IMG/VR virus record: IMGVR_UViG_3300047560_001719
Coordinates: 1-57,799 of that record
DNA from: a virus
Direction: 5' to 3' (one strand)
Length of the DNA stretch: 57,799 nt
The notes under the pieces were generated by a model, which did not search any database, had not been told where the DNA came from, and saw nothing but the letters and a program-made list of their open reading frames with translations. The position numbers were made by a program, and so were the translations under genes. Position 1 is the first letter of the stretch. Each line of letters starts with the position of its first letter. Shown here in pieces: positions 4,092-49,635 of this stretch.

Positions 4092-7000
4092 TGAAGAACA
4101 TCGAAAAGAGAATCTCTCCGTTAATCGAAAGTCAGTTCCCTTCTTTTTATCAAGAAGAGGGAGAGAACTTCATTGCGTTCGTGAAAGCATACTACGAGTG
4201 GCTAGAAAATACTAATAATCCTCTCTACCATACTCGTCGTCTTCCGAACTATCGTGATATCGATGAGACGACTGACGACTTCATCGTTCACTTCAAAGAA
4301 AAGTATCTGAAGAACATTCAGTTCGATACTGCTACCAACAAGAAACTACTCGTCAAGAACTCGCTCGACCTGTATCGTTCGAAGGGTACAGAGCAATCGA
4401 TCGACCTGTTCTTTAAACTTGTATACGGTACATCTGCAGAAGTTCGTTATCCTGCTGATAAAATCTTTCGTCTGTCAGACGGGATCTACGAGCGTCCAGA
4501 ATACCTCGAGATCGGATACTCGATCTACAACATCGACTACGTCGGTAAGCAGATCGTCGGTCAGCTTTCTGGTGCCAAGGCATTCGTCGAGAAGTACATT
4601 CGCCGTCGCGCTGGTAAAGGCTATGTCAATCTTCTGTACATCTCTGGTCGAGAAGGTGAGTTTCAAAACGGTGAAGTTATCGGTCTGAACGTAAACAATC
4701 AACCAGTCTTTAACATCAAGAAAAGATCAAAGCTCGTAGGTTCTGTCAAGCGTGTAACAGTTCAGACTCGCGGCCGTGATTTCAACGTAGGTGATATCGT
4801 AAAGTTTGTTAACAGCGACAGAGGTCTAGGTGGACTGGCACGAGTCGAATCGATCGACTCAGAAGCAGGTCTTGTCGACTTCATCTTCGTCGACGGCGGT
4901 TACGGATATACTCTCAACTCTGAATCGATCATCTCTGAAAAAGTATTGAACCTTGACTACGTCACTGCAGACTACACGAGCGGGCAATACTATCGCCTGT
5001 TCGAGAGAGGTATTCAGCCGGTAGTCAACATCGGTTACAGCACTGCTACTTCGAACGTATCTGTCGGTAATACAGTCTATCGTTATGCTGCCAACGGGCA
5101 ACTCGCTGCCGAAGGTAGAGTTCTCGAAGTATCTGCTTCTTCGAATACAAACGGTTACATTTCTGTTTCTCATACTGCAGGTGTCTTCGTACCCAACGCT
5201 ACTTACGGTACGGCTAGCAACGTCATCACTTTCAAAGCTGAGACGGTAGAAGATAAGTCGATGTCGGGCAAGTTCATGAACACGCCGACCGACTACTTCG
5301 TAACCATCACGTCTCCATCACAGCCTTTCATGGTAGGCGATGTGATCATGCAGGTGAACAGCTCTGCTGCCATCGGTACTGCCACGGTAGCCAATGTCGT
5401 GGTAGTAGGAGACGGTACTATTCTGTCTGTGACAGATGCTCGCGGTGTATTCAAAAACAGTAAGAGAATGGCTGACTGGGACTATAAGGTCGGTTCGGGA
5501 ACTATTACATCGTCGAACACAAGCAACGTGGTAACGGGTACATCTACATCTTTTAGCAACAACTACCTGAACGCTACTCTCTACACTACAGGAAACGTTG
5601 TAGTAGGAAACGTGGCCACAGTAATCAACTCAACGTCTCTGACTCTTTCATCGAACGCTGCCGTAAGCGTCTCGACCAACGCTCATAGTTACGGTCTGAC
5701 TTATCGTATTGTTAATCAAAACAATACTCAGATCTATGCAAACGTCAGCCACGTTAACCTCGATGCTGGTCTGTACGACATCAAGAAACAAGTACATACT
5801 ATTCAGTTCAACAGCTGTTCATCGAACAACGTCACGTTCGCGAACAACATCTATATCTACAATACTTCTGGAAACCTTGTTTCAGAAGGTCAGGTCATCA
5901 CTGTCAACTACAGTGCCGCTTCGAATAGCGGAAACCTAACGTTCGTATCTCGTAAGGGTTACTGGAACGAGACGGACACAGTATACACTGCATCGAATGC
6001 CGTCAACTTTAAGATCGTTTCATACTCTCTCGATATTGAGGGTGGAGACTACGTCAGATCGTATCCAGCTCGAATCATCGCTCCTCTATCTAACACTGGA
6101 GCTAATATAGCTTCTATTAGTTATGGATCTGGTGCAGGGTTTGGTGTAGGGACGATCGGCGAAACAGAAGTAATCTTTGTTGGTACAGACATTGTTTCGG
6201 CCAACAGCCAAGACACACTCGACTATAGCAGAAAGCAACTATCTGTTACATCTAACTCGGGTTTTGCTGTAGGTCAAAGAGTTTATCAACAAGTTCGAAA
6301 GAGCTCATTTAACCCTTCGACTGCAGTCAACGCTACGAGCGGGTTTATCACCATCACGAACGCCAACACTTACTACATTGCTGGTGATCAGGTAACATAT
6401 GAAGTTGCTGCAGGTAACACAGCTGTCACCACTCTCGAGAGTGGAAAAACATATCATGTCGTGTTCTCAAATACATCTGGTCTGATACTGTCTCAGACTG
6501 CCAACAAGTACGTGCATATCAACAGCACAAGTTATCCTGGTGAAACGTTTGCTAACACGTCATTTAATGTTCCTGCTTTCGCGGCTACACGAGCGAACCA
6601 AACTGGACATTACATCTATAAGAAAGCATATGGAACAGTATACGATGTTGCAGGAACTACTCTGAAGATCAAAGATCCGATCAGAAGTTTTGGTTTCACT
6701 AATACATCTTCGACTCCGTCAAACAGTAATATAATTGTCTATAGTAATACTCTCGTAAACACGGCTATTACAGCAGTGTCTACTCTGGCTACTCTTACTC
6801 AAGCCAATCAGGTATTTGCATCTGAACTGATCTCGAGTGACGCTTATGGTTTTCCGAAGAATCCAGAAGGCAACTTCCTGGATAATCTCTATGCATGTCT
6901 GACGTTCGGTAGATTTGAGATTGGTATCATCGGTTCTCTCAATCAAGTCAACCCAGGTACAGACTACAACATCGACCCGTTCGTGTTGGCCTATCAGCCT

Positions 7001-21564: not shown

Positions 21565-23295
21565 ATGGCAGGCGCAAACAGTAGATTTAAAGTTGATAAC
21601 GGTCTAGTTGCTTCTGGTAACGCCATCTTCTATGATCGTGTCGATGTCGAGGCTAACGCTCACTTCAAGAACGACTTGTTCGTTGTATCTGGTAACCTAG
21701 TCGTTAACGGATCGCTAGTATACGCTAACGTGACAGTAGGCAACGGCGGTATCCTTCTGATCGCGGATCAGCAACCGCTCGGTAACACATCGAATCGTTT
21801 CAACGGTTTCCTTTACGATACCATCTCATACGGAACTCTTCGTCCGAACTCCAACGGTGGTGCTCTCGGTACTACGACTGCACGTTTTGATGTTTTTGCA
21901 AACAACATCACTCTCACAAACTCTCTGCAGTTGACAGGCGGTGGTGGAGTCAACTCATCCCTCTATACGGGTACAGCGAGCAACGCAAATACTGTTTACA
22001 ATATCTCGGCAAACGGTATAGTAGTTCGTACAGGTACAGGAACTGGTGAAGCAAGAACTATCGTCGGTTCAAATGCCGTTACAGTTACCAACGGTGATGG
22101 TGTATCTGGTAATCCAACTTTGACGTTTGCCAATGGTACGGGTCTTACCGTCAACTCGACTGGTGTACACGTCGATCTTTCTGCTGTCACGACTGGTACT
22201 CTTGCAGTGGCTCGTGGTGGTACAGCAGGTAACGTAAACAACCTTCTACCTACTCAATCGGCCGGTGTAGCAGGATACGTTCTGTCTACTAACGGTGCTG
22301 GCGGTGGTCTATATTGGTCTGCTCTTGCTGGACCACAAGGACCACAAGGTGCGACAGGTGCAACTGGGGCCACAGGATCTACAGGTGCACAAGGACCACA
22401 GGGACCACAGGGACCGCAGGGAGCTGCATCGACAGTTGCAGGTCCACAAGGTGCTACAGGGGCAACTGGAGCGACTGGACTTACAGGACCGCAGGGACCT
22501 ACTGGACCACAAGGGCCACAAGGTGCTCAAGGTTTACAAGGTGCTACTGGATCTACTGGAGCTACAGGTGCACAAGGACCACAAGGACCACAAGGTGCTA
22601 CTGGTGCAGCTTCGACTGTTGCAGGTCCACAAGGACCACAGGGACCGACAGGAGCTACAGGATCAACTGGTCTTACCGGGGCCCAAGGACCACAAGGACC
22701 AACTGGGGCACAAGGTGCTACTGGGGCGCAAGGATTACAGGGCGCGCAGGGATTACAGGGTGCAGCTGGTGCTACAGGTGCGCAGGGACCGACGGGTGCA
22801 CAGGGACCTGCAGGATCGAATGGTTCGACAGGTGCTACGGGGGCACAGGGTCCACAGGGACCACAAGGAAGTGCAGCTTCAGCAGCTGCACCTATTCTCA
22901 GACACGTTACATCTGGTTACACATCAGGCGGTCAAGTCTTCGTAACGGGAACTACACCGACTGCATCGGCCGCTGGTGATATCTGGATCGATACTTCTGG
23001 TTCTTCAGGGTTTACGCAGTCTCTCTCTTCGAGCGGTTATACTAAACTACCGAACGGTGTGTACATTCAATGGGGTTCGATATATACATCTCCAAACTCG
23101 AATGGGTCAGGATCATGGCCTATCACTTTCCCGAATGCATGTTTTGCTGGTGTGATGAACGGTGTCGGTGAAACAAGTACATTCGGCGGTCAAGGTGGCG
23201 ACCCGACGATCTATAGTGTAAGTACTTCTGGATTTAGTTATCACTCTGGTGATGATGTTGGATGTACAGCATGGTTCATAGCAGTAGGATACTAA
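21565..23295 (+). CDS. Collagen-like tail fibre with gp53-like C-terminal domain
   Basis: The 576-residue protein has an N-terminal beta-repeat fibre domain ([19 protein letters not shown]), then about 180 residues of Gly-X-Y triplets (residues about 256-436) rich in GPQ and GAT and broken twice by a GAASTVAG linker. The C-terminal domain of about 120 residues has [17 protein letters not shown], an ITFPNACF strand and a final WFIAVGY, as in C-terminal receptor-binding or fibre-tip domains of the gp53-like/short tail fibre type. It is followed at once by a likely fibre assembly chaperone. A trimeric collagen-like shaft carrying a receptor-binding tip is the natural reading. Confidence 0.85.
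22330..22872 (+). repeat. Collagen-like Gly-X-Y coding repeat
   Basis: About 60 in-frame Gly-X-Y triplets, mostly GPQ, GAT, GST and GAQ. The DNA is a near-repeat of GGACCACAAGGA-type units, which also makes long spurious open frames in other phases. Confidence 0.9.
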
Positions 23296-29086: not shown

Positions 29087-32000
29087 ATAAAAACAATTTT
29101 AGAGTCAAGAACGGGCTCACAGTAAGTAACGGGATCGTAGTAGAAGCCGGAGTTATTTCTGGTAACGGCTCTTCGATCACATCGGTCAACGCAGCTACTC
29201 TTAACGGTAACACCGCTGCTCAGCTTCGAGCTTATACTGACTCATCTATCGGTACATCCAACACTGCTATCGTAGCGAATGCTTCTGCGGCTTACACGAA
29301 CGCTGTAAGCTATACAGATACTAAAATTGGAACTGCCAACTCTGCCATCACTGGTAACGCTGCTACTGCTTATACGAACGCCACTTCGTTTGCATCGAAC
29401 GGTTCGAACATCTCGACAGGAACTGTAGCTTTCGCTCGCCTTCCTACTGTCGACTCGGTAGCTAATACATCAGTTGCATTAATCCCGACAGCCAACAACG
29501 TCAAGACTGCATACGATGCTGCTATCACAGCCAACAACAATGCTGCGTCTGCACTCACTGCGGCCGGTACAGCATACAGTAACGCTGTAACCTACACCGA
29601 CACCAAGATCGGTACGGCCAACTCTGCTATCGTAGCTAATGCATCGGCTGCTTATACTAACGCAGTTTCTTATACAGATGGCAAGATCCTAACTGCAAAC
29701 TCTGCTATTACAGGCAATGCTGCCACCGCCTACTCTAACGCGACTAGCTACACTGACACGAAGATCGGTACTGCAAACTCTGCGATGATCGCGAACGCCA
29801 GTGCAGCTTATACCAATGCTACAACCTATGCATCGAACGCTTCGAACATCTCGACAGGAACTCTTGCTTTCGCGAGACTTCCTACTGTAGACTCTGTAGC
29901 GAATACATCAGTAGCTTTGGTTCCTACTGCCAACAACGTCAAGACGGCATACGATGCAGCTATCACCGCAAATACCAATGCGCAGACAGCTTTGACTGCA
30001 GCGGGTGCAGCTTATACCAATGCAGTGAGCTACACAGATACGAAGATCGGTACTGCAAATACGGCCATGGCTGCTAACGCTGCAGCTGCTTATACAAATG
30101 CTGTCAGTTACACAGACGGTAAGATTCTAACTGCGAACTCTGCTATTACAGGCAACGCAGCTACGGCATATACCAATGCGACGACATACGCTTCGAATGC
30201 CAGCAATCTTTCTACCGGAACAGTAGCAGAAGCTCGGCTTCCATATCGTATGAACCAAAACGTTCGTACTACAGATTCTGTAGAATTTGCTGGTATCACT
30301 CTCACAGGAAACCTTGTTGTTTCAGGTAACGTGAACGTTGTCGGCGCAAATAACCTGATCGTGTCCGATAACATGATCTATCTGAACAGCAACAACGACG
30401 TCACGAACCCGGATATCGGTATCGCTGGTAACTACAACGACGGCGTGTATCACCACACGGGTATCTTCAGAGATGCCACTGACGGGTTCTGGAAAGTTTT
30501 TGATAACTATGATCCAGAACCAGACGCGAACGTGTACATCGATACTACTAACACGTCGTTCCATATCGCTGATTTCTGGGCAAATACAGCACGTATCGGT
30601 AACACATCAGTATACGCCACCATTAATACCACGACGTTTACTGGCACCGCGAACAACTCTACGTATCTTAATGGTCAACTAGCAGCTTACTATACGAATG
30701 CCACGAATATTAGTACAGGTACACTCGCAGCAGCTCGTTTACCTTCACTGTATCTCGGCACTACGACTATTCAGTCTACCAGCGCCGCGCAGGCTGTTAG
30801 CGGTATCACGACTCTTGCTGCAGGTAATACTACGATTACCGGTTTTGCAAACGTATCGGTGTCTGTTAACTCTGCTGCTCTTTCTGTCGGATCAAGCTTT
30901 GTAGCCAACACTACACAAGTAACTTATGGTATTCCACAGCTGATCAATAATAATCAGCATCTAAGATTCCAGACAGTCAACACTTCTGCATACGCATACT
31001 TTACACAGCAGAACGACGATAACTTTGTATTCTATACATCGAACACCACTTATGGCGCTCGTGCAGTATTCTCGATCTTTGCCAACAGCGTCACGAGTAC
31101 TTTTAACATCTCTCCAGGTGTTGTATTCAACGGCGGTATCTATGCTAACGGTTCGTACGGTACTTCTGGTCAAGTCCTAACAACGAATGGAACCGGAGTC
31201 TACTGGTCAACTGCATCAGCAGGTGTGAACGTCAACTCTACGTATGCTTGGACTAACACACACTCGTTTGCCGCCAACGTTACTTTTGCAAACAACATCT
31301 CTATCACTTCAGGAAACTCTTCTGTTGCTGGTGGGTTCTTGCTATTCAACGGTATAGCAGACGCTAACTGGAAGATCGGCAGAAATACCAACGGTACAAC
31401 CAAGTGGTACTACACAAACAACTCTCTTGATATCTTAGTAGCCAACTCGAACCTCGAAGGTATCGTTCTCGGTAACCCGCTCGTTAGCGGACAATCTTAC
31501 CTCGAAACTGGCCATGCCGGAACTTACATCGCAGGTAACGTAACTATCGGTAACACTTCGTCTAAATCTACCATCAACTCGACTGCGTTCTCAGGCTCTG
31601 CTAACAACTCTACATACTTTGACACAGCAACATGGGCAGCACCGAAAGCTATCGGTGGAGGCACTGCCAACTCGGGTGCTTTCACTACGGTAACTGCTAC
31701 GAGCGTTTCTGCTACTACAAACATCACCGCTACAGCAAACGTTTCGGGTGATATGGTTATCACAGCCAATAACGGTAACGGTACAAACTTCAAGGTCGGA
31801 GACGATGCTTGGATCGGAGACGTCAACCAGGCAGATACTCTTCGTATTCAAGGTCAACAGAGCGCAAACAACGCATACATCGTATTCGGCAATGCCGATA
31901 ACTCGATTAAGCTTGGCCGTGCAGGAACAGGAGCACTAACTTGGAACAGTAACTTTGCTGTTACAGGTAACGTTAACGTCAGCACTATTAATGCCACATC

Positions 32001-33918
32001 GTTCGGAGCTACGATCACGTCGAACGCTTCTGTAGCAGTCATGACGATCGGTAACTCTTCAGTGAGCTCAACCGTAAACAGCACGACGTTTACCGGCACC
32101 GCCAACAACGCTACGTATCTTAATGGTCAACTTGCTGCATACTATACCAATGCCACGAACATCACTACCGGTACTTTACCTTACGCTCAGATCCCAGCAA
32201 ACGTAATCAATACGACAGCGAACTTTACTATCTCTGGCCAGCATACCTATAATGTTGCAACGTGGGGAGTAATATTTAGAGCATCGAATACTACAAACTT
32301 CTCTGGAGCTAGATGGGAAGACACCGGTGGTACGGTTAGAGCAGGTTGGTATCGTTACGATAATTCTGATCTAACGCTGTCGACATACTATGCGAACGGT
32401 ACATATCAAGCTTCTCCTATTATTGTTTCATCAGCAACGGGAGCAGTTTCTCTTACATCGCTGTCAACGACAACCGGTACTTTCTCCGGCGCGGTTTCAG
32501 GTATTACTACTCTTGCAGCCGGTAACACTACTATTACTGGCTTTGCGAACGTATCTACTTCAGTCAACTCTGCACTGTTGACGGTTGGATCTAGCTTCAT
32601 TGCAAATACCACAGGTGCATATCATACAGGAACAGTCAACGCTGCATCTTATACAGTCGGAACAACGTTCGTTGCGAACAGTACATTCCTAACAGTAGGT
32701 ACAGCAACTCCATACAACAGCGGACTCGTTACATCATCTGCTCCCGATGGAAAACAAGCATATACTGCGCAAGTAGCCAACAATGTTTATTCACTATTCC
32801 AAGGATTCAACTCAAGCGGCGGTCTTGCTTTCCAAGTAACTGGTTCTGGATCTGTTACCGCAAACGGGTCATTGTCAGGAGTTACCACTCTTGCAGCTGG
32901 TAATACAACTATCACCGGATTCGCTAACGTTAGTGGTACCGGTGGAACGCAGCCTGCAATCGCTCTTAGAAGTGGTGTTTATGGAGCATTTGTTGTACCA
33001 CAAGCCAGTCCAGGCGCGTATAATAACTTAGTAGCTAATAATGACAATTTATTGTACTTCTCGAATGGCACTATAAACGGTGGAAATCTTGTCATTGGAT
33101 CATGGTCAGATCGTGCATCAGGCTATGGCATTAAATTTACCGGCAGTACATACGATTTAGCAGTTACTGCTAATACCCTCACTATTACTGGTAACACGAC
33201 TATTACCGGTTTCGCCAACGTAACTACTACTCTCCAGGTCGGAGGAGGCACTGCAGGTTCTCCAGCAATCACCGCTGCTACATCTACTGGCGGTGTTTCC
33301 CTGTCTCTTACAGATAGTGTTACGAGTACTCTTATCGTAAGGCATGATTCTGGATCAGGTCATCCTATTATTGGTACAAATGGTTCTGGTTTGAGACTTG
33401 CGGCTGGAGGTTCACAGTCAGGTCAAACTGCTATCACTATCATCAACAGTGGTAATACCGGTATCGGTAACACCTCTCCAGCACATAAGTTTTCAGTTAA
33501 CGGAACAACATACCTTGGAGGTATCACGACAGCTGCAGCTAACGTGGCGATGGCTAACAACTATATCGTTGCTCCTGCATTCCAAGCATACTCTGAATAC
33601 GTGTCGACGAATGCCACTGCAACTGGTGCTATCACTCTCGACCTGTCGACTTCGAACTTCTTCAACCTGACTCTGACAGGTAACATCACTCCGACGTTTA
33701 GCAACGCTCCTTCTGGTAGAATGTTCTCGTTCACGTTCGTTGCCAAGCAAGACGCGACAGGTGGTAGAACGATCACATGGCCGACAGGAACGAAATGGCC
33801 AGGCGGTGTTGCACCTCCTGCAACGACTACGGCAAACGCCATAGATATATGGTCAGTCATGACATACGACGGCGGTACTACATGGATCGCTTCACTCTCA
33901 GTTAAAAATGCGAGCTAA
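29080..33918 (+). CDS. Giant tail fibre without canonical start (probable ATA start)
   Basis: From the last in-frame stop (29062-29064) the frame is open to 33918, but the first ATG is at 29785 and there is no GTG or TTG before it. The 29092-29784 stretch is clearly coding: it holds the same repeats as the rest (AYTNAVSYTDTKIGTANSAI, STGTVAFARLPTVDSVANTS). With ATA at 29080 as start, the N-terminus reads (I/M)NNKNNFRVKNGLTVSNG, which parallels the start of the collagen-like fibre ([13 protein letters not shown]), and ATA-A overlaps the upstream TAA just as ATGA does at other junctions. This gives 1612 residues. Later parts carry the IVSDNMIYLNSNNDVTNPD module (30349-30590), four GITTLAAGNTTITGFANV-like repeats and the common fibre C-terminal domain (ITWPTGTKWPGG). 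This is probably a long tail fibre. Confidence 0.75.
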   Translation: MNNKNNFRVKNGLTVSNGIVVEAGVISGNGSSITSVNAATLNGNTAAQLRAYTDSSIGTSNTAIVANASAAYTNAVSYTDTKIGTANSAITGNAATAYTNATSFASNGSNISTGTVAFARLPTVDSVANTSVALIPTANNVKTAYDAAITANNNAASALTAAGTAYSNAVTYTDTKIGTANSAIVANASAAYTNAVSYTDGKILTANSAITGNAATAYSNATSYTDTKIGTANSAMIANASAAYTNATTYASNASNISTGTLAFARLPTVDSVANTSVALVPTANNVKTAYDAAITANTNAQTALTAAGAAYTNAVSYTDTKIGTANTAMAANAAAAYTNAVSYTDGKILTANSAITGNAATAYTNATTYASNASNLSTGTVAEARLPYRMNQNVRTTDSVEFAGITLTGNLVVSGNVNVVGANNLIVSDNMIYLNSNNDVTNPDIGIAGNYNDGVYHHTGIFRDATDGFWKVFDNYDPEPDANVYIDTTNTSFHIADFWANTARIGNTSVYATINTTTFTGTANNSTYLNGQLAAYYTNATNISTGTLAAARLPSLYLGTTTIQSTSAAQAVSGITTLAAGNTTITGFANVSVSVNSAALSVGSSFVANTTQVTYGIPQLINNNQHLRFQTVNTSAYAYFTQQNDDNFVFYTSNTTYGARAVFSIFANSVTSTFNISPGVVFNGGIYANGSYGTSGQVLTTNGTGVYWSTASAGVNVNSTYAWTNTHSFAANVTFANNISITSGNSSVAGGFLLFNGIADANWKIGRNTNGTTKWYYTNNSLDILVANSNLEGIVLGNPLVSGQSYLETGHAGTYIAGNVTIGNTSSKSTINSTAFSGSANNSTYFDTATWAAPKAIGGGTANSGAFTTVTATSVSATTNITATANVSGDMVITANNGNGTNFKVGDDAWIGDVNQADTLRIQGQQSANNAYIVFGNADNSIKLGRAGTGALTWNSNFAVTGNVNVSTINATSFGATITSNASVAVMTIGNSSVSSTVNSTTFTGTANNATYLNGQLAAYYTNATNITTGTLPYAQIPANVINTTANFTISGQHTYNVATWGVIFRASNTTNFSGARWEDTGGTVRAGWYRYDNSDLTLSTYYANGTYQASPIIVSSATGAVSLTSLSTTTGTFSGAVSGITTLAAGNTTITGFANVSTSVNSALLTVGSSFIANTTGAYHTGTVNAASYTVGTTFVANSTFLTVGTATPYNSGLVTSSAPDGKQAYTAQVANNVYSLFQGFNSSGGLAFQVTGSGSVTANGSLSGVTTLAAGNTTITGFANVSGTGGTQPAIALRSGVYGAFVVPQASPGAYNNLVANNDNLLYFSNGTINGGNLVIGSWSDRASGYGIKFTGSTYDLAVTANTLTITGNTTITGFANVTTTLQVGGGTAGSPAITAATSTGGVSLSLTDSVTSTLIVRHDSGSGHPIIGTNGSGLRLAAGGSQSGQTAITIINSGNTGIGNTSPAHKFSVNGTTYLGGITTAAANVAMANNYIVAPAFQAYSEYVSTNATATGAITLDLSTSNFFNLTLTGNITPTFSNAPSGRMFSFTFVAKQDATGGRTITWPTGTKWPGGVAPPATTTANAIDIWSVMTYDGGTTWIASLSVKNAS

Positions 33919-33921
33919 TCG

Positions 33922-35601
33922 ATGGGTATTGGTGGCGGTTCTAAATTTACATTAGAAAAAACATGGCGTGGATCTGGAACGGGAACTACTAAGTTCAACT
34001 CTCCGGGTAACATCGCTATTCCTTATGGTCGTAACAGCATCTACGTTTCAGGGCAGGGTGGTTCTGGGAACGCGCTCGTTCCAGGACCAGGAACTGGTAC
34101 TTACAACGTTATTCCTGGTAATGCGACCGGTACTTACAACATTATTCCAGGAAATGCTACTGGAACCTACAACATCGTTCCTGGTAACATCTCGACTTAC
34201 AATATCATTCCTGGTCCAGTGGCTACGTACAACATCATCTATCCAGTAGCTACATACAACATCATCTATCCAGGAACTGGTACATACAACATTATCTATC
34301 CAGGAACTGGAACCTATAATATCGTTCCAGGTAATGCTACTGGTGCTTATAACATTATTCCAGGAAATGCTACTGGCATCTACAACAAAATTGCCGGTAA
34401 TATAGCTACATACAACATCATCTATCCAGGAACCGGCACGTACAATATCGTTCCAGGTAATGCTACTGGAACCTACAATATCATTCCAGGCAATGCTACT
34501 GGTATCTACAACAAGATTCCCGGTAATATAGCTACATACAATATCATCTATCCAGGAACTGGTACATATAACATCGTTCCGGGTAATGTCGTTTCTTACA
34601 ACGTCACATATCCAGGAACCGGTACTTACAATAAGATCCCAGGTAACGTAGTAAGTTACAACATCGTTCCCGGTAATGTCTCTACGTATAACGTCATTCC
34701 GGGTAACGGTACTTACTACCCTCCGTATCCTGGATTTCAAAATTACTATTATTCTCCGAAGTACGGTGGTCCTGTACTAGACTTCTTTTATAATGCCCCA
34801 ACGCCCGGTTTTGTAGGTGCACCTTATAACGCTCCGACCGGTGGTCCTGCAAACTACAACGCTGCAACAAACGGGCCCGCGAACTACAACGCTGCAACAA
34901 ATGGTCCTCAGAACTACAACGTAGCGAACGGACCTGCAAACTACAACGCTGCAACAAATGGTCCTCAAAACTACAACGTAGCCAATGGTCCGGCTAACTA
35001 CAATGCGCCTACTAACGGCCCGACTAACTATAATGCTGCGACAAATGGTCCGCAGAACTACAATGCACCTACCAACGGTCCTCAAAACTACAACGTAGCC
35101 AATGGTCCGGCTAACTACAATGCACCTACCAATGGTCCGACTAACTACAATGCGCCTACTAACGGTCCTCAAAACTACAACCCTGCTACCAATGGTCCGC
35201 AGAACTATAACGTAGCGAACGGTCCTCAAAACTATAACGTAGCCAATGGTCCTGCAAACTATAATGTAGCGAACGGCCCTGCGAACTACAATGCTCCGAC
35301 GAACGGCCCTGCGAACTACAATCCAGCTACCAACGGTCCACAGAACTACAATCCAGCTACCAACGGTCCTCAGAACTATAACCCAGCAACAGCTGGTCCG
35401 CAGAACTATAATACTCCTACTCCAGCAGTTGCAGGTAACCCATCTTCTGCTCTTGGAATCACTTTCCCTGGGTCAAACGTCGGAGGTACACCTGCTCCTG
35501 TTATAAGTAATCAGCTGGCAAGCTACTACTCATACCCAGATGGTCAAACGCATTCGGTAACGGTAGCTCCCGGAGGTTATATCGACATTACCATTCAATA
35601 A
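33922..35601 (+). CDS. Repeat-rich fibre-tip-like protein (TYNIIPGN and NGPxNYN arrays)
   Basis: The 559-residue protein follows the giant fibre by three bases. The N-terminus (GIGGGSKFTLEKTWRGSG, then IPYGRNSIYVSGQGGSGN) resembles the opening of Gly-rich adhesins. Then come about 20 units centred on TYNIIPGN or TYNIIYPG (34081-34714), a short Tyr/Pro-rich spacer, and about 20 units of NGP(A/Q/T)NYN followed by AAT, APT, PAT or VA (34843-35421). The C-terminus ends with a beta strand (THSVTVAPGGYIDITIQ). Units of 9-11 residues with a fixed Tyr-Asn and Pro suggest a solenoid or extended fibre. By analogy with the 26488/27996 pair, it may be the distal adhesin of the giant fibre. The function is not known; the two arrays are directly visible. 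Confidence 0.75.
   Translation: MGIGGGSKFTLEKTWRGSGTGTTKFNSPGNIAIPYGRNSIYVSGQGGSGNALVPGPGTGTYNVIPGNATGTYNIIPGNATGTYNIVPGNISTYNIIPGPVATYNIIYPVATYNIIYPGTGTYNIIYPGTGTYNIVPGNATGAYNIIPGNATGIYNKIAGNIATYNIIYPGTGTYNIVPGNATGTYNIIPGNATGIYNKIPGNIATYNIIYPGTGTYNIVPGNVVSYNVTYPGTGTYNKIPGNVVSYNIVPGNVSTYNVIPGNGTYYPPYPGFQNYYYSPKYGGPVLDFFYNAPTPGFVGAPYNAPTGGPANYNAATNGPANYNAATNGPQNYNVANGPANYNAATNGPQNYNVANGPANYNAPTNGPTNYNAATNGPQNYNAPTNGPQNYNVANGPANYNAPTNGPTNYNAPTNGPQNYNPATNGPQNYNVANGPQNYNVANGPANYNVANGPANYNAPTNGPANYNPATNGPQNYNPATNGPQNYNPATAGPQNYNTPTPAVAGNPSSALGITFPGSNVGGTPAPVISNQLASYYSYPDGQTHSVTVAPGGYIDITIQ
34081..34714 (+). repeat. Array of about 20 TYN-(I/V)-(I/V/P)-PGN units
   Basis: In-frame units of about 9-11 codons, each with Tyr-Asn followed by Ile/Val and PGN or YPG. 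Third-base variation between copies shows that the array has been maintained for some time rather than just expanded. Confidence 0.85.
34843..35421 (+). repeat. Array of about 20 NGPxNYN units
   Basis: In-frame units of 27 or 30 bases encoding GP(A/Q/T)NYN plus VAN, AATN, APTN or PATN. Blocks such as GTAGCCAATGGTCC recur, indicating unequal recombination. Confidence 0.85.
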
Positions 35602-35623: not shown

Positions 35624-36217
35624 ATGCCATATAATATTCCTAAGTACGGGAAACAACTGAATTGTTTTGCGGTGTGGTCCGGAGGATTTACTTCAGAAGA
35701 AGTCGATAAGATCATTGATCTCGAACGACTTCAAACATTTGAAAAAGGAAAAGTTGGTTTTGATAAGAATGCTGCTGCGCCCGCTGAGACACGAGACTCA
35801 GACGTATCCTGGATTCATCACGATCAACACAGCGACTGGCTTTTCAATCGTATGGCCGGTATCACGTCTATCGTCAACTACGATAACTTCATGTACAACA
35901 TCGATGGAGTCGATGCGTTTCAGTACACGAAGTATGGACCAAACCAGCACTATACTTGGCACTGGGATGTAGAGTTCGGCTGGCAAAAATGGGTTCGAAA
36001 GATCTCGGCTGTTCTGTTACTCTCTGATCCTGATGAGTATGAAGGTGGAGAACTTGAGATCGTTAACACTGGAAACCTCGAAGACAAAGTTTCCTTTAAA
36101 CCGAACAAAGGTGATATCGTATACTTCGCTTCGTGGATGCCGCATCGTGTTGCTCCGGTAACTTCTGGTCTTCGTAGAAGTCTTGTAGCATGGATAATGG
36201 GTGAAAGAGAATGTTGA
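35624..36217 (+). CDS. 2OG-Fe(II) oxygenase, prolyl 4-hydroxylase-like (PKHD type)
   Basis: The 197-residue protein has the complete iron and 2-oxoglutarate site of the P4Hc fold: YGPNQHYTWHWD with H113 and D115, a distal H174 in WMPHRVAPV and R184 in TSGLRR. A conserved GGELEI turn and GDIVYFAS strand complete the jelly roll. The family hydroxylates protein side chains or small molecules using oxygen and 2-oxoglutarate. It follows the Pro-rich repeat protein by 22 bases and overlaps the next gene by seven bases, so it leads the accessory operon. The substrate is not shown by sequence; hydroxylation of Pro in the neighbouring fibre repeats is a hypothesis. Confidence 0.88.
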   Translation: MPYNIPKYGKQLNCFAVWSGGFTSEEVDKIIDLERLQTFEKGKVGFDKNAAAPAETRDSDVSWIHHDQHSDWLFNRMAGITSIVNYDNFMYNIDGVDAFQYTKYGPNQHYTWHWDVEFGWQKWVRKISAVLLLSDPDEYEGGELEIVNTGNLEDKVSFKPNKGDIVYFASWMPHRVAPVTSGLRRSLVAWIMGEREC

Positions 36218-36948
36218 GTTGGAATCCTTTTAAGAAAAAGCCTATCATCGAGTTTTATTGTCATCGAGACGATGTAGCCACTCTTCCTCAGCCTCGACCG
36301 GCAGCAAAGTACATACCGGAATGGTACAAGAGAATTCCACCTGTGATCAATGATGGTAATAACGACCGCGATCAATACGGAGCTCGAACCTTTACAGCCA
36401 AGAAGTGCATGCCAATGTTGGATGCGATGTCTCTTGGATATGTTATTCCCTTGATATCAGATCTTTCAGTTAGGTCAAATCATGATTGTAGCACGATCGA
36501 AGTCACATCTTCTCCACATATCAACGTTTGCGAGTTCCATGACATTCGCCAACTCGGAGAGAGAACTGCTCCTGGATTCCCAGCTCCTCCTCTTAAATTC
36601 ATCAATCCGTGGATCGTGAAGACCGCTCCGGGTTGGTCGACGCTGTTTATGCCGCTTATTAACAATATGGAAAGCCACTTTACTTGTCTTTCTGGTCTGG
36701 TTGATACAGATACCTATCCAAAGGAAGTTAACTTCCCGGCTGTTTGGCACACACCAAACTTTGATGATTTGCTTCCAGCTGGTACTCCCCTTGTAGTAGC
36801 TATTCCGGTCAAGAGAGATGCAATTCCGACAAAACCGGTAGTACGTGACATGACAGATAAAGAATTTGATAAAGTCAATCTTATTACGAAGATGCAGAAC
36901 ACACGTAGAAAAGTTTATACTGATGAATTGAGAGCACCTAGAAAATGA
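36211..36948 (+). CDS. Unknown phage protein, paralogue of 36945 gene
   Basis: The 245-residue protein begins with IIEFYCHRDDVATLPQPRPA and IPEWYKRIPPV, a pattern seen in uncharacterised phage proteins (possibly the DUF6065 group, not certain). The middle has LGYVIPLISD, and the C-terminal half NPWIVKTAPGWSTLFM, then SGLVDTDTYPKEVNFPAVW and AGTPLVVAIPVKR. These stretches align with the downstream gene product. The fold looks like a beta-sandwich or cupin, but no metal triad is evident. It overlaps both neighbours, so it is co-translated with the hydroxylase. Confidence 0.7.
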   Translation: MLSWNPFKKKPIIEFYCHRDDVATLPQPRPAAKYIPEWYKRIPPVINDGNNDRDQYGARTFTAKKCMPMLDAMSLGYVIPLISDLSVRSNHDCSTIEVTSSPHINVCEFHDIRQLGERTAPGFPAPPLKFINPWIVKTAPGWSTLFMPLINNMESHFTCLSGLVDTDTYPKEVNFPAVWHTPNFDDLLPAGTPLVVAIPVKRDAIPTKPVVRDMTDKEFDKVNLITKMQNTRRKVYTDELRAPRK

Positions 36949-37685
36949 AGAATCCATTTACATCATGGTTTAAACCGCAAAAAGATCTCGAATTTGTAGA
37001 TACTACTCGCCTTACGTATCATAACTTTACGGTCGAAAGAGCGTGCGATGTCAAAGCAAACACGTATCGCCATCAACTTGATACGTATGGAAAACATATG
37101 ATGCCGGGTTGTCCAGGAATCCTCGACTACTCTCAGTATGGGTATATTATTCCTGCATGGGTAGACATCCATATTTTTGCAAACAAAGCAGGAGTTTCCT
37201 GGCGCATAGGAGATGGTGCAGCTCGTGGAGATAGAGGGTTTGCAAACGGAAATCCTATGGATTATAGGTTGATAGACGGAGCCTTCGAAGTCGAAGATGT
37301 TCCTCCTACGGCTATTCTATTTCCATCTCCTTGGAAAATCTTTGCACATAAAAATATCAGTGCAATGGTAATGCCTGCAACGTATCATGGTTCTCATTTT
37401 GAAGATTTACATGTTATTCCAGGAATAGTTGACTACAACAAGTTTCATGCAGTCAATTTTATTTGTATGCCGCGACGATCTTGCGAAGTTCATATTAAAG
37501 CCGGAGAACCGCTTCTTCATGTCATGCCGTTTTTAAATAAGTCTATTACAGCGTCGGTCGGTCCAGGCACAGAAGAGCAGGTAGATAAAGCAAAGAACAT
37601 GATTCCGGGTGATGACGAGCAATACTATCGAAAGTTCATGAGAACAAAAAAGATTTTTAAGATAAACAAAGAGAGTGAGCAATGA
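36945..37685 (+). CDS. Unknown phage protein, paralogue of 36211 gene
   Basis: The 246-residue protein shares the layout of the preceding gene product: YGYIIPAWVDIHI against LGYVIPLISDLSV, PSPWKIFAHKNISAMVMP against NPWIVKTAPGWSTLFMP, and PGIVDYNKFHAVNF against SGLVDTDTYPKEVNF. Both have a KAGEPLLHVMPF or AGTPLVVAIPV strand. The two are divergent tandem duplicates. Start and stop both overlap neighbours by ATGA. The function is unknown; the position between a hydroxylase and a glycosyltransferase suggests a part in the same modification pathway. Confidence 0.7.
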   Translation: MKNPFTSWFKPQKDLEFVDTTRLTYHNFTVERACDVKANTYRHQLDTYGKHMMPGCPGILDYSQYGYIIPAWVDIHIFANKAGVSWRIGDGAARGDRGFANGNPMDYRLIDGAFEVEDVPPTAILFPSPWKIFAHKNISAMVMPATYHGSHFEDLHVIPGIVDYNKFHAVNFICMPRRSCEVHIKAGEPLLHVMPFLNKSITASVGPGTEEQVDKAKNMIPGDDEQYYRKFMRTKKIFKINKESEQ

Positions 37686-38698
37686 ATATTTTTGTTTCGA
37701 TCTGTTCTTACCAAGATCCATTACTGCCACATACTATCAAGAGTATGATGCAGACCAAATCTAATAGAAACAACGTCGTGTACTCGATCTTCGAACAGAC
37801 TCGTTATGAGGATTCTCTTGCATGCACAGAACCTGTATTAGTAGGTCGTGAAGACGTTATCTACAAAAGAATTGATCCTGAGTATTCGGACGGATGTGTG
37901 TGGGCAAGATACGTCAACATGTTGAACGTTACTGACGAGTTCGATTTCATCTATCAGATCGATTCGCATATTCTGCACGATCAGCATTGGGATCGCGCGC
38001 TGATCGAAGATTATAAGAGAGCGTTGGATATATCTGGAACAAACAAGATCATCATCACGGGATCGTGTAAAGGTTTCAACATCTCTGAAGAAGATGACGA
38101 GATAAAGACTTATTTGATTGAACAAGAAGATCTATCTTGTAAAGTAGGGTACTACACAATCGATCCTGAAACTCTCATTCCAGTAGTGCACGGAGATTCT
38201 TTTCCTGCAACCGAAATGCCTCAGCCGGCATTTCATATCATGGCAGGCAACTTCTTTACTCACAAAGATTGGGTAGATAATGTCGGCTTAAATCCAAAAA
38301 TCTTCTTCGAAGGCGAAGAAGTAATGATGGCAATGATGTCGTATGCAGCTGGCTATAAGATGTTCCATCACAGTAAGATGGTTTCTTATCACCTAGCTGA
38401 TACAAAGACTTGGCATACAAAGAACAATGTAGTCGAACCAGCAGGTGCACGCCGTAGGCAAAGACTTTCTGAGATCGGTCGACTTGAATGGAGGAAATAC
38501 TTAGATACATGTCGTGAAGATATGCTAGAAGCTTTCCATCAAGAGTTCGGAATCGATTTTATTAATCTTGAAATCGCAGAGAGTGCCCGAACATACAGCT
38601 TAGACACTCCAGGTAAAGCAAATCATTTTACTGAATTCAAGAAGGTTCCAGAAGAAAACCAACTTCCTCCTGCTCTGTTTATGAAAGACGATGAATGA
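37682..38698 (+). CDS. GT60-like glycosyltransferase (GlcNAc-transferase family)
   Basis: The 338-residue protein has the GT-A features of the Skp1-GlcNAc-transferase/GT60 group: an N-terminal IFVSICSYQDPLLPHTIKSM, the segment DGCVWARYVNM, the donor/metal motif YQIDSHILHDQHWD (residues 91-104) and the later KIFFEGEEVMMAMMSYAAGY with a following YHL. In Dictyostelium, GT60 Gnt1 adds GlcNAc to a hydroxyproline made by a P4H; that is family knowledge. Here the gene shares an operon with a P4H-like oxygenase. No membrane anchor is seen, so it acts in the cytoplasm. The actual donor and acceptor are unknown. Confidence 0.78.
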   Translation: MNIFVSICSYQDPLLPHTIKSMMQTKSNRNNVVYSIFEQTRYEDSLACTEPVLVGREDVIYKRIDPEYSDGCVWARYVNMLNVTDEFDFIYQIDSHILHDQHWDRALIEDYKRALDISGTNKIIITGSCKGFNISEEDDEIKTYLIEQEDLSCKVGYYTIDPETLIPVVHGDSFPATEMPQPAFHIMAGNFFTHKDWVDNVGLNPKIFFEGEEVMMAMMSYAAGYKMFHHSKMVSYHLADTKTWHTKNNVVEPAGARRRQRLSEIGRLEWRKYLDTCREDMLEAFHQEFGIDFINLEIAESARTYSLDTPGKANHFTEFKKVPEENQLPPALFMKDDE

Positions 38699-39228
38699 TC
38701 GTTTGTTCTATTCCTCGGTGCGGAGCTACTCGGTTCTGTCTTGATTTGCAAGATCAGACCGATATTCCATTCATCGGAGAACTGAACCCGCTTTACATGT
38801 TCGAGAACAAGAAGGTGGATCATCACGAGACAAAGTTTCAGAAAGATTTTACTCCTGATCGGTTTGCCGATCTTATCTACGATAAGAAAAGCAGCATCGT
38901 CATGATAAATAAATCATCGTATCTGATAGCTGACAAAGCTGACTATGTGATCTTGAGAAAGAATATGATAGACGCTTTCATGAGCTACGCTAACTTCATG
39001 CTGAAGTTGTACCCAGATATCGATACGAAGGTGCTCTTAAAAGAGATACAGTTTACTGTCTACGACTACTTTGGTTTAAAGTCTTACGTTGATAAGTATG
39101 TATGTAATATCGTGTGGTATGAAGACTATTTTGGAAAGAGTGGAACACAGACTCCTTTATTGGATAGTCATAGGCATGGATCGGTAATAAAGAAAGCAAT
39201 TCAGGATGTTTTTAAGGAATGTAGATAG
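38695..39228 (+). CDS. Sulfotransferase-like protein
   Basis: The 177-residue protein begins with a P-loop-like CSIPRCGATRF (residues 4-14), resembling the 5'-phosphosulfate loop of PAPS sulfotransferases (PRSGTT). A second motif VILRKNMIDAFMSYANF (R88, S97) matches the 3'-phosphate site RDPxxxxxSxxxF. It is shorter than most sulfotransferases (250 or more), so it may be a minimal phage version. It overlaps its upstream neighbour by ATGA and the downstream desaturase by 23 bases. It could sulfate a glycan or lipid made by neighbouring enzymes. Activity is inferred from two motifs only. Confidence 0.6.
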   Translation: MIVCSIPRCGATRFCLDLQDQTDIPFIGELNPLYMFENKKVDHHETKFQKDFTPDRFADLIYDKKSSIVMINKSSYLIADKADYVILRKNMIDAFMSYANFMLKLYPDIDTKVLLKEIQFTVYDYFGLKSYVDKYVCNIVWYEDYFGKSGTQTPLLDSHRHGSVIKKAIQDVFKECR

Positions 39229-39931
39229 AACATATCACTTGTTTGCTCTACAACTTATTATGCCCGTCATCGCAGTATGGGCAATGATAACATACTTTTC
39301 ATGGCCATGGGTCTTAGCATCCTTGGTCATGTTTTTCCTTATGCGGTGTGTAGGAGCAGTGGTCACGTATCACCGTATTCATGGTCATCGTACACATACT
39401 ATGCATCCTGTAGTCGAGTTTATATGTACAGGCCTCGGTTTTTATGGTAGCATATCATCGCCGATCGACTTCTGTGCAGCGCACGTCAACCATCACAAGT
39501 ACATGGACACGGAAAAGGATCCTCACTCTCCGAAGTACCTCGGTTGGAAAGCTATGTTCCCTCTCTTTTGGGTAGATCGACAAGCAGGAGATCTTCGAAC
39601 GATAGTAAGATTAGGTAAGAACAAGATCACGAGATTTTATCATGACTACTACTGGCCGTTGCTTCTCGTTCCGTTCTTGTTACTCTTCGTTTCTTTGAAC
39701 GCGTTCTTGTTTTTGTTCGTAGTACCGACCGGTCTTTCGTTGTTTACGCTTTCGATATCAACTCTCAATCATGATAAGAACGGACCAAAAAAGATGCCAT
39801 GGTGGTACGGAATTTTGACCGGTGGAGAACACCATCATAAATGGCATCACGAACATGCAACAGACACGAGCGGAGAAGGATGGCTCGACTACGTTGCCAA
39901 TGCAGTAGGCACAAAAAGGGTTAAGAAATGA
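39206..39931 (+). CDS. Membrane fatty-acid desaturase (Delta9-like)
   Basis: The 241-residue protein has the three histidine boxes of membrane desaturases: HRIHGH (H56-H61), HVNHH (H93-H97) and HKWHH (H211-H215) with the preceding GEHH, plus an LNHD near residue 189. Hydrophobic segments at about 14-50 and 150-185 form the membrane hairpins. It resembles bacterial acyl-CoA/acyl-lipid Delta9 desaturases, somewhat short. It would introduce double bonds in host acyl chains and change membrane fluidity during infection. It overlaps the sulfotransferase-like gene by 23 bases and the next gene by ATGA. Desaturases have been reported in marine phages. Confidence 0.88.
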   Translation: MFLRNVDRTYHLFALQLIMPVIAVWAMITYFSWPWVLASLVMFFLMRCVGAVVTYHRIHGHRTHTMHPVVEFICTGLGFYGSISSPIDFCAAHVNHHKYMDTEKDPHSPKYLGWKAMFPLFWVDRQAGDLRTIVRLGKNKITRFYHDYYWPLLLVPFLLLFVSLNAFLFLFVVPTGLSLFTLSISTLNHDKNGPKKMPWWYGILTGGEHHHKWHHEHATDTSGEGWLDYVANAVGTKRVKK

Positions 39932-40470: not shown

Positions 40471-41241
40471 TTACCACTTTGTTCCGTGTCTTGAACTATA
40501 CTTCTTCTCGGGATGAAACGCAGCAAAGTCTTCATAGCGTGGATCTCCAGGTTCGGCTCTCTTGCCGATGCTGTACTCTCCGATATGAGTAACGAGGTTC
40601 TTTCCTTCTGAACTCTTTAGCTTGCATGTCTTCATTTCCATTTGTTTCAACGATGCTGCCACCACATACTCGCTGAGATTCTTCTCTCCAGTCATCTCAC
40701 GATGCGGGATATCTGCCATGCTTCTTGGAAAGAAGCTCGCTAGACTCCAGAAATACTGATCAGAGAGCTCTACTCGATATTGCGTACTAAGATTTTGAGC
40801 TTTGTCTAGAATGATGTCCGACTCGAGTGGTTGTGTCTCTTCTTCGAAGTCATACCACTTCTGACGCGTCAAGCATACTTGAGAGAACGTTTTGTTGTCA
40901 TGTAAAATCTGAGCGAGATCGAGAACCTTCACCGGTTGGTTGAATGTAACGTCGTCTTCTGACAAGTAAACATAATCGTAATCTCTCTGTCTCAATAGCT
41001 CGAACGTGGCGTTCCATACATATGGAAGTCCCATGTTCTGTTGATGCAGAATTACTTCAGTGTAACCAAAGTTCTTGGCCAACTCATACATCGTTCCGTC
41101 ATGCCGACCTTTTGGCATGTCATCGATAAAGATGCCTTCGACTTCACAGTGACTAAAGTCAAGCATATCTCTCTGAGACTTGAGAGTCGGGATCAGGTAC
41201 TCGAGTCTATTCGTCGACCAGATGATCTTACATACTTTCAT
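40471..41241 (-). CDS. Glycosyltransferase, GT-A fold
   Basis: This minus-strand gene encodes 256 residues. It has a GT-A/GT2-like layout: KIIWSTNRLEYLIPTLKSQ, then IFIDDMPKG (residues 37-45), HQQNMGLPYVWNAT and the metal-binding YLSEDDVTF (residues 92-100). The later SDQYFWSLASFFPRS segment is typical of an acceptor loop. There are no membrane segments. It starts by TGATG overlap with the minus-strand DUF6445-like gene upstream. The acceptor is unknown; it could act on a virion protein or on a product of the adjacent plus-strand operon. Confidence 0.78.
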   Translation of the reverse strand: MKVCKIIWSTNRLEYLIPTLKSQRDMLDFSHCEVEGIFIDDMPKGRHDGTMYELAKNFGYTEVILHQQNMGLPYVWNATFELLRQRDYDYVYLSEDDVTFNQPVKVLDLAQILHDNKTFSQVCLTRQKWYDFEEETQPLESDIILDKAQNLSTQYRVELSDQYFWSLASFFPRSMADIPHREMTGEKNLSEYVVAASLKQMEMKTCKLKSSEGKNLVTHIGEYSIGKRAEPGDPRYEDFAAFHPEKKYSSRHGTKW

Positions 41242-46995: not shown

Positions 46996-49635
46996 ATGGC
47001 GTTTCAAGTCAGCCCGGGAATCAACGTTTCCGAAATTGATCTTACAACTTCCGTACCAGCACTAGCGACTACTGTCGGTGGTATTGGTGGCGTGTTTCGT
47101 TGGGGTCCGATCGGAAAGTTTGTCCTCGTAGATTCAGAAAATACACTCGTAAATCGCTTCGGTAAGCCGACTGCCGACAACTACGAAACCTTCTTCACAG
47201 CAGCTAACTTCCTTTCGTATGGAAACGCCCTGTATGTTTCGCGTGCTGGTACCACGACAGCGTCTTTTGCTAATACGGTTGCATCTTCGAACGTTAACCT
47301 ACAGAGCAATACTACTGTCGTTCTTTCAGACAATACAAACCCATACGGTGTTACTGCTGGTCAAAGAGTAATCGGTGACGGTATCGCAGAAGGAACATAT
47401 GTTACTTCGGTTACAGCAAACTCTTCTGCTCTTGCAGTCGTTCTTAATCGCGCTGCAACTTCAAGCACAGACGCTGCGCTTACGTTCCTTTCGAACAACG
47501 TAGCTCTTTCTGCTTATGCGGGCGACACATCAGTTGCAAACAGTCTTGCGACAATCGTCAAGAACACTGAGCAGTTCGAAAACATGGGTGCAACTAACAC
47601 TGCCTTCACTGGTACAGAGTTTATTGCTCGTTATCCTGGTGAACTTGGTAACTCTCTCAAGGTTTCGATGTGCTCTACTGCGCAGCAATACAGCGAGACT
47701 GTTACATTCGAAACTAATACCTCATGGGGTTACACCGCTGCAAACACATACGCTCTTGCAGATCTTACATCTGCAACGATGTCGATCAACGTTGCTAGCA
47801 ACACTGCTAACGTCGTGTTCGTATGGTCGGGAGACGACTTTGCGGATCGTGTAGCTGCTTCTGCAACCGCTCGTACACTCGGATCGAACAACGTTTCAGC
47901 CAACTTCATCACTCTATCGACAGCTAACACTCTGTTCACTAACGGTGATACAGTATGGTTTGCAAAGGGTGCAGCTTCTTCAGCGAACAGTATTCAAGGC
48001 CTTTCAGAAGGTACAACTTACTACGTTATCGGAGCGAATACAACAGGTCTATCTCTGTCGCTGACACTTAACGGTGCAGCCGTTTCGATCTCGAACGGTG
48101 CTGCTAACTCGGTTAACTACATCGTCAAGCAATCGGCTACTGACCTTGGTCTTACTCTTGCTCAGGCTCGTCTGGCTGTTACAGCCCTTCGCGATAAGAT
48201 CACTGTCGGTGACTACGTTGAAGTTGGTAACACAACTGTCGGCAAGCAGAACCTGAAGGTAACTTCGAAGGGTTCACAGCTCGACGACGGTACAAACATC
48301 TACTTCAACATCGGCTTCGATACAACTTGGAACAAGTCAACTAACTACAGCGCTTCGGCACTGACTCGTAAGTGGGAATACTTCAACGTTGTCGAGTCTG
48401 CTCCAGGTACATCTTCGGCGATGGCTGCAGCAGGTCGTGCTATCACTGACGAAGTATCGGTTGTAGTTGTCGACGAAGACGGTCTGATCTCGGGTACACC
48501 CGGTCAAGTTCTTGAAATCTACCAGAACCTTTCGCGCGCGACAAACGCCAAGAAGGACGACGGTACAACGAACTACTACAAGACTATCATCAACGACTTC
48601 TCACGTTACGTATGGGCAACCAACGATCGTTCAGCAGCCGCATCGGATACTCTTGGAGACCTTTCTGATTCGACCAATACTGTTCCTTACACCAAGTCGT
48701 TCGTACGCGGTGCAGATGGTGCTACAGAGAATACGATCTCGATGGCTGCTCTCGGCGCTGCTTACGATCTGTTCGCAGATGCAAGCACTGTTGATCTTTC
48801 GCTGCTTCTACAGGGTAAGGCAACAGGAACAAACGACGTTCAGCTAGCCAACTATCTGATCGACAACGTCGCTGAAGTTCGCAAGGATTGCGTAGTGTTC
48901 ATCTCTCCTGCTAAGTCAGACGTCGTAGGTGTTGGTCTTGAAAATCTTCAAGCACAAAACATCGTCGACTTCAGAAACGCACTGCATAACACATCTTATG
49001 CATTCCTCGATTCTGGTTACAAGTATCAGTACGACAAGTACGCTGACGTTTACCGCTATATTCCACTGAACGGTGACATCGCCGGTATCACTGCTCGCAG
49101 CGATAGCGTAAGAGATCCTTGGTTCTCACCAGCTGGCTTCACACGCGGTCAAGTCAAGAACCTTGTAAAGCTTGCCTTCAGCCCGAACAAGACTGAAAGA
49201 GATCTTCTGTACAAGAACGATGTCAACCCAGTCGTTACGTTCCCAGGTCAAGGTACAGTACTTTACGGAGACAAGACACTTCTTGGACGTTCAAGCGCAT
49301 TCGATCGTATCAACGTTCGTCGCCTGTTCATCGTTCTTGAAAAGGCGATCGCCACTGCTTCTAACTCGGCACTGTTTGAGTTCAACGATGAGTTCACAAG
49401 AGCTCAGTTCAGAAACCTCGTAGAACCTTACCTACGTGACGTACAAGGTCGCCGCGGTATCTACGACTTCCGTGTGGTTTGCGATGAAACGAACAACACT
49501 GCTGAAGTAATCGACAGCAACCGCTTTGTTGGAGATATCTACATCAAGCCTGCTAAGTCGATCAACTTCATTCAGCTGAACTTCGTTGCCGTAAGATCTG
49601 GTGTCGAATTCAACGAAATCGCTGGCCAGTTCTAA
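46996..49635 (+). CDS. 18: gp18-like tail sheath protein with inserted domain
   Basis: The product has 879 residues against 659 for T4 gp18. The N-terminus (FQVSPGINVSEIDLTTSVPA, then GGVFRWGPIGKF) and the C-terminal 330 residues (DPWFSPAGFTRGQVKN, AFDRINVRRLFIVLEKAI, FTRAQFRNLVEPYLRDVQGR) are the conserved contractile sheath core. The middle is expanded. Residues about 298-378 (47886-48130) hold one copy of the NGDxVxF...YYVxGANTTGLSLS module seen in the gp7-like and DUF4815 proteins. Such insertions project outward in known sheaths. It has its own late promoter, as expected for a high-copy protein. Confidence 0.95.
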   Translation: MAFQVSPGINVSEIDLTTSVPALATTVGGIGGVFRWGPIGKFVLVDSENTLVNRFGKPTADNYETFFTAANFLSYGNALYVSRAGTTTASFANTVASSNVNLQSNTTVVLSDNTNPYGVTAGQRVIGDGIAEGTYVTSVTANSSALAVVLNRAATSSTDAALTFLSNNVALSAYAGDTSVANSLATIVKNTEQFENMGATNTAFTGTEFIARYPGELGNSLKVSMCSTAQQYSETVTFETNTSWGYTAANTYALADLTSATMSINVASNTANVVFVWSGDDFADRVAASATARTLGSNNVSANFITLSTANTLFTNGDTVWFAKGAASSANSIQGLSEGTTYYVIGANTTGLSLSLTLNGAAVSISNGAANSVNYIVKQSATDLGLTLAQARLAVTALRDKITVGDYVEVGNTTVGKQNLKVTSKGSQLDDGTNIYFNIGFDTTWNKSTNYSASALTRKWEYFNVVESAPGTSSAMAAAGRAITDEVSVVVVDEDGLISGTPGQVLEIYQNLSRATNAKKDDGTTNYYKTIINDFSRYVWATNDRSAAASDTLGDLSDSTNTVPYTKSFVRGADGATENTISMAALGAAYDLFADASTVDLSLLLQGKATGTNDVQLANYLIDNVAEVRKDCVVFISPAKSDVVGVGLENLQAQNIVDFRNALHNTSYAFLDSGYKYQYDKYADVYRYIPLNGDIAGITARSDSVRDPWFSPAGFTRGQVKNLVKLAFSPNKTERDLLYKNDVNPVVTFPGQGTVLYGDKTLLGRSSAFDRINVRRLFIVLEKAIATASNSALFEFNDEFTRAQFRNLVEPYLRDVQGRRGIYDFRVVCDETNNTAEVIDSNRFVGDIYIKPAKSINFIQLNFVAVRSGVEFNEIAGQF

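Follow-up and report, generated by a model that had tools for sequence, protein, structure and literature searches.

Directly behind the distal fibre gene, T-even phages encode the gp38 adhesin (e.g. in Salmonella phage S16) and haloarchaeal hafunaviruses a glycine-rich adhesin, and these have in common constant ends, a repetitive low-complexity body and hypervariable segments. Plant extensins and mussel foot protein have short Tyr/Pro-rich repeats with hydroxyproline. A pair of enzymes from the 2OG prolyl-hydroxylase superfamily and the PF11397 transferase family, PhyA and Gnt1, acts on Skp1 in Dictyostelium and Toxoplasma, where the substrate of Gnt1 is the Skp1 hydroxyproline made by the prolyl hydroxylase (PMC3515798, PMC11570480). 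For the prolyl 4-hydroxylase of Chlorella virus PBCV-1, viral Pro-rich proteins have been proposed as substrates (Eriksson, 1999, as cited in PMC9301287).

The window (the whole stretch of viral DNA analysed here, 57,799 bases) has T4-like structural genes for baseplate wedge, tail sheath, tube, portal, terminase and major head protein, and the gene of a 559-aa repeat protein, whose open reading frame we confirmed at 33922–35601 (+), occupies a gp38-like position in it behind a fibre gene; a fibre end lies directly 5′ of the repeat gene in relatives too. Like gp38, the gene directly follows the distal fibre gene, at 3 nt, and hypervariable segments with conserved flanks are present, but the polyglycine-II glycine-rich motifs of gp38 are absent. 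Unlike gp38-type adhesins, the protein has no poly-glycine body but two Pro/Tyr/Asn-rich arms of equal length with one central tip, its gene is accompanied by those of an oxygenase and a PF11397 enzyme, and it has no sequence match to a gp38 family. The equal-armed, cassette-linked form would be a new one of a known kind, the phage adhesin. The features are as follows:

29785–33918, +, tail-fibre gene ending 3 nt before the repeat gene, with a phrog_9017 domain at its C-terminus
33922–34068, +, N-cap (aa 1–49), constant in relatives from alignment, cap profile and AF2 of relative L101; part of the predicted base domain
34069–34737, +, arm 1 (aa 50–272), 20 TYN(I/V)(I/V)PGN-type units
34738–34788, +, central non-repeat insert (aa 273–289), QNYYYSPKYGGPVLDFF, the presumed distal tip, hypervariable among relatives
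34789–35421, +, arm 2 (aa 290–500), 20 NGPxNYN units and flanking variants
35422–35601, +, C-cap (aa 501–559) and stop, constant in relatives; with the N-cap it makes up the predicted base domain
35624–36217, +, 2OG-Fe(II) oxygenase (PF13640; prolyl-4-hydroxylase/PKHD superfamily), the presumed arm hydroxylase
36211–36948, +, DUF6065 protein (phrog_7084), located after the oxygenase across the close clade
36945–37685, +, second DUF6065-like protein (phrog_7084)
37682–38698, +, PF11397 glycosyltransferase (Skp1 hydroxyproline GlcNAc-transferase family)

The original prediction of two adjacent arrays of about 20 short repeats in one protein was borne out in its counts, with 20 and 20 units. The [YF]N motif occurs 43 times in the 559 residues and 39 of its 42 successive spacings are of 9–11 residues (mean 0.66 and maximum 5 in 2000 residue shuffles), while identity at lag 10 extends to 183 residues (mean 61 and maximum 91 in shuffles). 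Array 1 comprises 20 units at aa 61–265 (nt 34102–34716) with periods of 9, 10 or 11, and array 2 comprises 20 units at aa 302–505 with periods of 9 or 10; invariant across all 20 units are Y-N in the former and G-P-x-N-Y-N in the latter. Between the caps the protein has 13% Gly, 13% Pro, 21% Asn and 13% Tyr, with no poly-Gly, and minus-strand open reading frames across the arrays are by-products of the repeats. The arrays share one protein but are not strictly adjacent, being separated by the non-repeat linker, and neither the caps and tip nor the modification genes had been noted originally.

A scan of IMG/VR revealed 31 loci related to the repeat protein. The N-cap is constant in all 31 (KFTLEKTW..GTTKFNSPGNIxIPYGRNSVxVSGRGGTG), as is the C-cap in full-length relatives (LGITFPGSNxGGTPAP..ASYYxYPDG..VAPGGYIDITIE). 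The repeat pattern is conserved among close relatives, which retain the repeat types except that Phe replaces Tyr in many of them; Tyr chemistry (DOPA, cross-links) is therefore not essential. Scans with the neighbouring enzymes added relatives with the same caps and wholly different repeats (PASYNTVPGTTNPTTFPYT, NPTAYGYNVTPGN, YNTNYNVAYPIANQPATAY and PGNANYNPPTPGN). Composition between the caps is alike across relatives (Pro 10–21%, Asn mostly 11–24%, Tyr plus Phe 10–22%, few charges), the exceptions being L107 (Pro 5%) and L111 (Asn 3%, with charged residues present), and L032 has the caps and the oxygenase almost without repeats and without a PF11397 gene. We found no confident match to the repeat protein in phrogs, pfam or ncbifam, no cassette in the named phage records searched, and no description of a capped repeat protein with its cassette in the literature searched. 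A likeness to the Caulobacter phage RW/RLK/KcrB pentapeptide repeats was rejected as composition-driven (26%, second array only), and so was membership of the extensins (PF02095), with 26.4 bits against a cut-off of 105; the Pfam Extensin_1 match is weak (E 7e-6, below cut-off), and extensins and mussel foot protein differ from the repeat protein in having no homology to it and in its phage origin. At two loci (L103, 734–4043, and L104, 2727–5938) two tandem capped repeat proteins with different tips precede one modification cassette, and in L106 (4513–5937) the capped protein is present as two open reading frames (4513–5211 and 5407–5937), either because its frame is broken or because the assembly is at fault.

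Comparison between units gave a pS of 0.72 and a pN of 0.12 for the 10-mers of array 2 and a pS of 0.56 and a pN of 0.07 for the 11-mers of array 1, with weaker constraint in the 10-mers of array 1 (0.67 and 0.34), so that pN/pS is 0.13–0.16 in regular units and 0.51 in the latter. Between units, synonymous sites have come close to saturation and the amino-acid pattern has nonetheless persisted; the arrays are old and under purifying selection, and the proposal that selection maintains the repeats was upheld. The further proposal, that unequal recombination would readily change their length, found no support within a virus: contigs of the same virus (sets of 11, 4, 3 and 2) showed zero nucleotide differences in the gene and no length polymorphism, with the proviso that these may sample few sites and that assemblies could hide rare variants. 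Between viruses length does differ, in both arms together. A pair of short VANGP units lies 121 aa from the C-terminus in eight of nine viruses: repeat units keep their positions along the protein.

Most members have two arrays with a non-repeat insert between them. We delimited the arms by self-similarity segmentation of each protein, a procedure without centre bias since inserts moved at random were recovered within 5–7 aa (median error 5 aa). In 23 single-insert proteins, with arms ranging from 44/44 to 294/269 aa, the lengths of the two arms are correlated with r = 0.99 and their mean absolute asymmetry is 0.021 (maximum 0.053), compared with a chance expectation of 0.50 and a smallest value of 0.285 among 20000 draws; for 12 proteins with different repeat types r = 0.992. 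Examples are 44/44 (L105), 104/102, 158/158, 212/213 and 246/242, the window protein having 223/211, and unit counts are likewise similar between arms (20/22, 18/18, 21/22, 24/25 and 27/28). The arms of sister viruses vary jointly, by −51 and −47 aa for L022 vs L026 and by 25 and 31 aa between L022 and L012. Where there are two inserts, the first and third arms together equal the second exactly in L109 (155, 284 and 129; 155 + 129 = 284), to within 9 aa in L110 (155, 367 and 221) and to within 43 aa in a second copy in L110 (161, 251 and 133). That the arms stay equal although the repeats are replaced altogether suggests that a protein rod obeys a rule of matched lengths, one that sequence searches would miss.

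Between the arrays lies a hypervariable segment, in agreement with the variable tip proposed originally. Among 10 close relatives with flanks 83–92% identical, the insert averages 35% identity and the caps average 91% and 88%, and insert divergence barely tracks flank divergence (r = 0.14). One insert type (KATNAFxSPKxGYTPAFYNAP) is common to four viruses from different branches, and the sisters L022 and L026 bear different types. These patterns are what a swapped, host-facing tip would show.

In an AF2 model of the short relative L101 (20-row alignment), both caps reached pLDDT 85–96 and the repeats about 40, and the strands of the N- and C-caps are predicted with high confidence to pack into one beta domain. 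Among the matches listed, both caps align jointly to a single compact domain in 9l20_A (65 residues, 2.7 Å) and to the Bxb1 tail tip 9d93_Pa (82 residues, 3.9 Å, Z 5.0). Foldseek matches to the caps, many of them in BFVD, are weak (best E there 0.02) and mostly to phage glycine-rich-domain proteins. The cap domain resembles these tail proteins weakly but repeatedly, with the difference that two arms and a tip replace their glycine-rich stretch and that there is no Pfam family match.

Because the arms are equal and both caps are predicted in one domain, the arrays most likely run antiparallel, out and back, as the two halves of a stalk that the caps close and whose tip is the insert. The repeat protein would sit at the distal tip of the T4-like tail fibre, in the place that the gp38 adhesin takes in T-even phages, and be anchored by the caps; the arrays would be the outgoing and returning arms of one rigid stalk, about one unit facing one unit, and the insert would be exposed and meet the host. 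A chain obliged to leave and rejoin its base would have equal arms, and, with two inserts, first and third arms that add up to the second. We consider it fairly probable that the protein is a virion tip or stalk, and we infer that the fold is a hairpin, that the tip binds the receptor and that the enzymes act on the arms. Of the solenoid or fibre cable envisaged originally, the virion or fibre role is supported, the gene lying behind a fibre gene, but a plain solenoid or cable is disfavoured by the equal arms and by the caps in one domain. The AF2 model of the full 559-aa protein, of low confidence (mean pLDDT 52.7), places a strand roughly once per 10 residues along each array (pLDDT 60–70), as would be expected if each array were a beta-solenoid and the two formed an elongated fibre, one on top of the other or next to each other, and several of the weak Foldseek matches to this model are beta-helical proteins; but none of its matches is significant (none below E 1.2), and units of 9–11 residues within an array and 10–20 across relatives, with arms still equal, fit length-paired arms better, so that we think such a fibre unlikely. 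Two solenoids lying side by side would in any case merge with the out-and-back stalk. It seems to us a shade less plausible still that the arrays form an uncharged spacer or bristle, flexible and disordered, whose arms are equal because tips tend to be inserted in mid-array, the enzymes acting elsewhere. Low pLDDT and the P/G/N/T-rich low-complexity sequence would suit it, but a loop has no cause to keep its arms equal while sisters differ by 50–70 aa, nor does it sit well with units constrained at saturated synonymous sites and variants fixed at one distance from the C-terminus.

The repeat gene is followed after a 22-nt gap by the oxygenase, and the cassette genes then overlap by 4–7 nt. The oxygenase matches PF13640 at E 8e-19, with H113, D115, H174 and R184 invariant in the alignment, and the glycosyltransferase matches PF11397, which we take to be the Skp1 Gnt1 family, at 86 bits (cut-off 21), with an invariant DSH (D94, S95 and H96). 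In a dereplicated oxygenase table, with the close clade cut at E ~1e-42 (30 members, 29 with upstream sequence), a capped protein lies 5′ of the oxygenase in 29 of 29, mostly at a distance of 5–61 nt; in L107, in L032 and at the first oxygenase of L105, one or two genes intervene. Among 54 distant oxygenases, 46 with at least 1 kb upstream, a capped protein lies 5′ in two, both collagen-like, these neighbour counts sharing ancestry and not being independent trials. A PF11397 gene is present at 24 of the 29 close-clade loci and at none of the distant oxygenases, and it is dispensable for the architecture since it is absent beside L101, L109, L110 and L111.

All arm repeat types contain Pro (5–21%) despite their entirely different sequences, and relatives of the oxygenase adjoin PF01391 collagen-like proteins, which together point to proline as the target; as the repeats of L107 have just 5% Pro, Asn or Tyr may be the hydroxylated residue instead. 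The arms may well undergo prolyl hydroxylation and O-glycosylation. The oxygenase would hydroxylate the stalk, most likely at arm prolines, the PF11397 glycosyltransferase would add a sugar to the hydroxyprolines, and the glycosylation would stiffen or shield the uncharged, aromatic-rich stalk; to this modification of the arms we give slightly less than an even chance. The substrate of the enzymes might instead be a nucleotide, a different protein of the virion or glycans on the host surface, the conserved gene order being just that of an old tail module, a possibility to be taken seriously, if on the doubtful side. It would accommodate the further cargo-like genes downstream (desaturase-like, glycosyltransferase-like) and the many cyanophages whose 2OG oxygenases do not lie near a repeat protein, oxygenases for which roles in nitrogen signalling or DNA repair have been proposed (PMC3037559). 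Nonetheless, the tie to capped proteins persists as repeats and fibres change and is absent among distant oxygenases, and L105 has two capped or collagen-like proteins, each paired with its own oxygenase and DUF6065 gene.

Taken as a whole, a closed equal-arm hairpin adhesin that has a hydroxylase and a Gnt1-family transferase of its own to hydroxylate and O-glycosylate its prolines, and whose repeats are free to change if the arms match, is a tentative reading, possible rather than probable. The Skp1 pathway has the same enzyme-family pair but concerns one proline of a eukaryotic regulator, whereas here the activity is putative and dozens of prolines of a phage structural protein are concerned; PBCV-1, by comparison, is a eukaryotic virus whose hydroxylase, in the account cited, has no link to a tail fibre or PF11397 enzyme. 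Should the enzymes act on the arms, hydroxyproline-linked glycans, until now a topic for eukaryotes and giant viruses, would also be made by bacterial phages, on the very protein with which they contact the host. The hairpin adhesin, if true, would be a new viral way to build the part that touches the host; it would assign a testable function to some of the many 2OG oxygenases of phages, which are as a rule counted as auxiliary metabolism, and offer a way into the DUF6065 family.

Several other loci touch on these genes. In L105 (3–5082) and L119 (539–6543), PF01391 collagen-like proteins have a DUF6065 gene and a 2OG oxygenase of their own behind them, and the N-cap profile matches the N-terminus of the collagen-like protein of L119 (E 5e-7). 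Halophage HF1 (L171, 5911–8748) has a DUF6065 homologue near a glycine-rich protein (7711–8748) resembling the hafunavirus host-range adhesin, and no oxygenase or repeat arms are annotated beside DUF6065 in haloviruses; likewise, no repeat protein is annotated beside the oxygenases of cyanophages S-SSM5, ACG-2014a and syn9. A TPTATPT-repeat open reading frame lies immediately 5′ of two distant PF11397-like glycosyltransferases in L088 (5706–8909), and a general link between PF11397 and Pro-rich repeats was rejected, the siblings L089 and L090 being without repeats and this 26%-identity subfamily unsupportive. A scan of a genome collection with the transferase identified one 4.4-kb contig, from a Chitinophagaceae metagenome bin, on which the genes stand in the same order; the contig ends before the repeat gene and was left out of host assignment.

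In the window itself, the PF11397 gene is followed, as in many relatives, by that of a 177-aa protein (38695–39228) starting MIVCSIPRCGATRF, sulfotransferase-like by eye and without a family match. A fatty-acid-desaturase-like protein (39206–39931) in the same gene run has a weak NCBIfam DesA match below cut-off and is 49–91% conserved in most relatives, and a glycosyltransferase-like gene on the minus strand (40471–41241; weak phrog_2456) is 77–78% conserved in relatives. Collagen-like GPQ/GAT tandem repeats occur at 22330–22760 within another fibre gene (21565–23295; phrogs tail-fibre matches). Finally, the best phage matches to the 879-aa tail sheath (46996–49635) cover just 66% of it, in two pieces, and the sheath seems to carry a large insertion.
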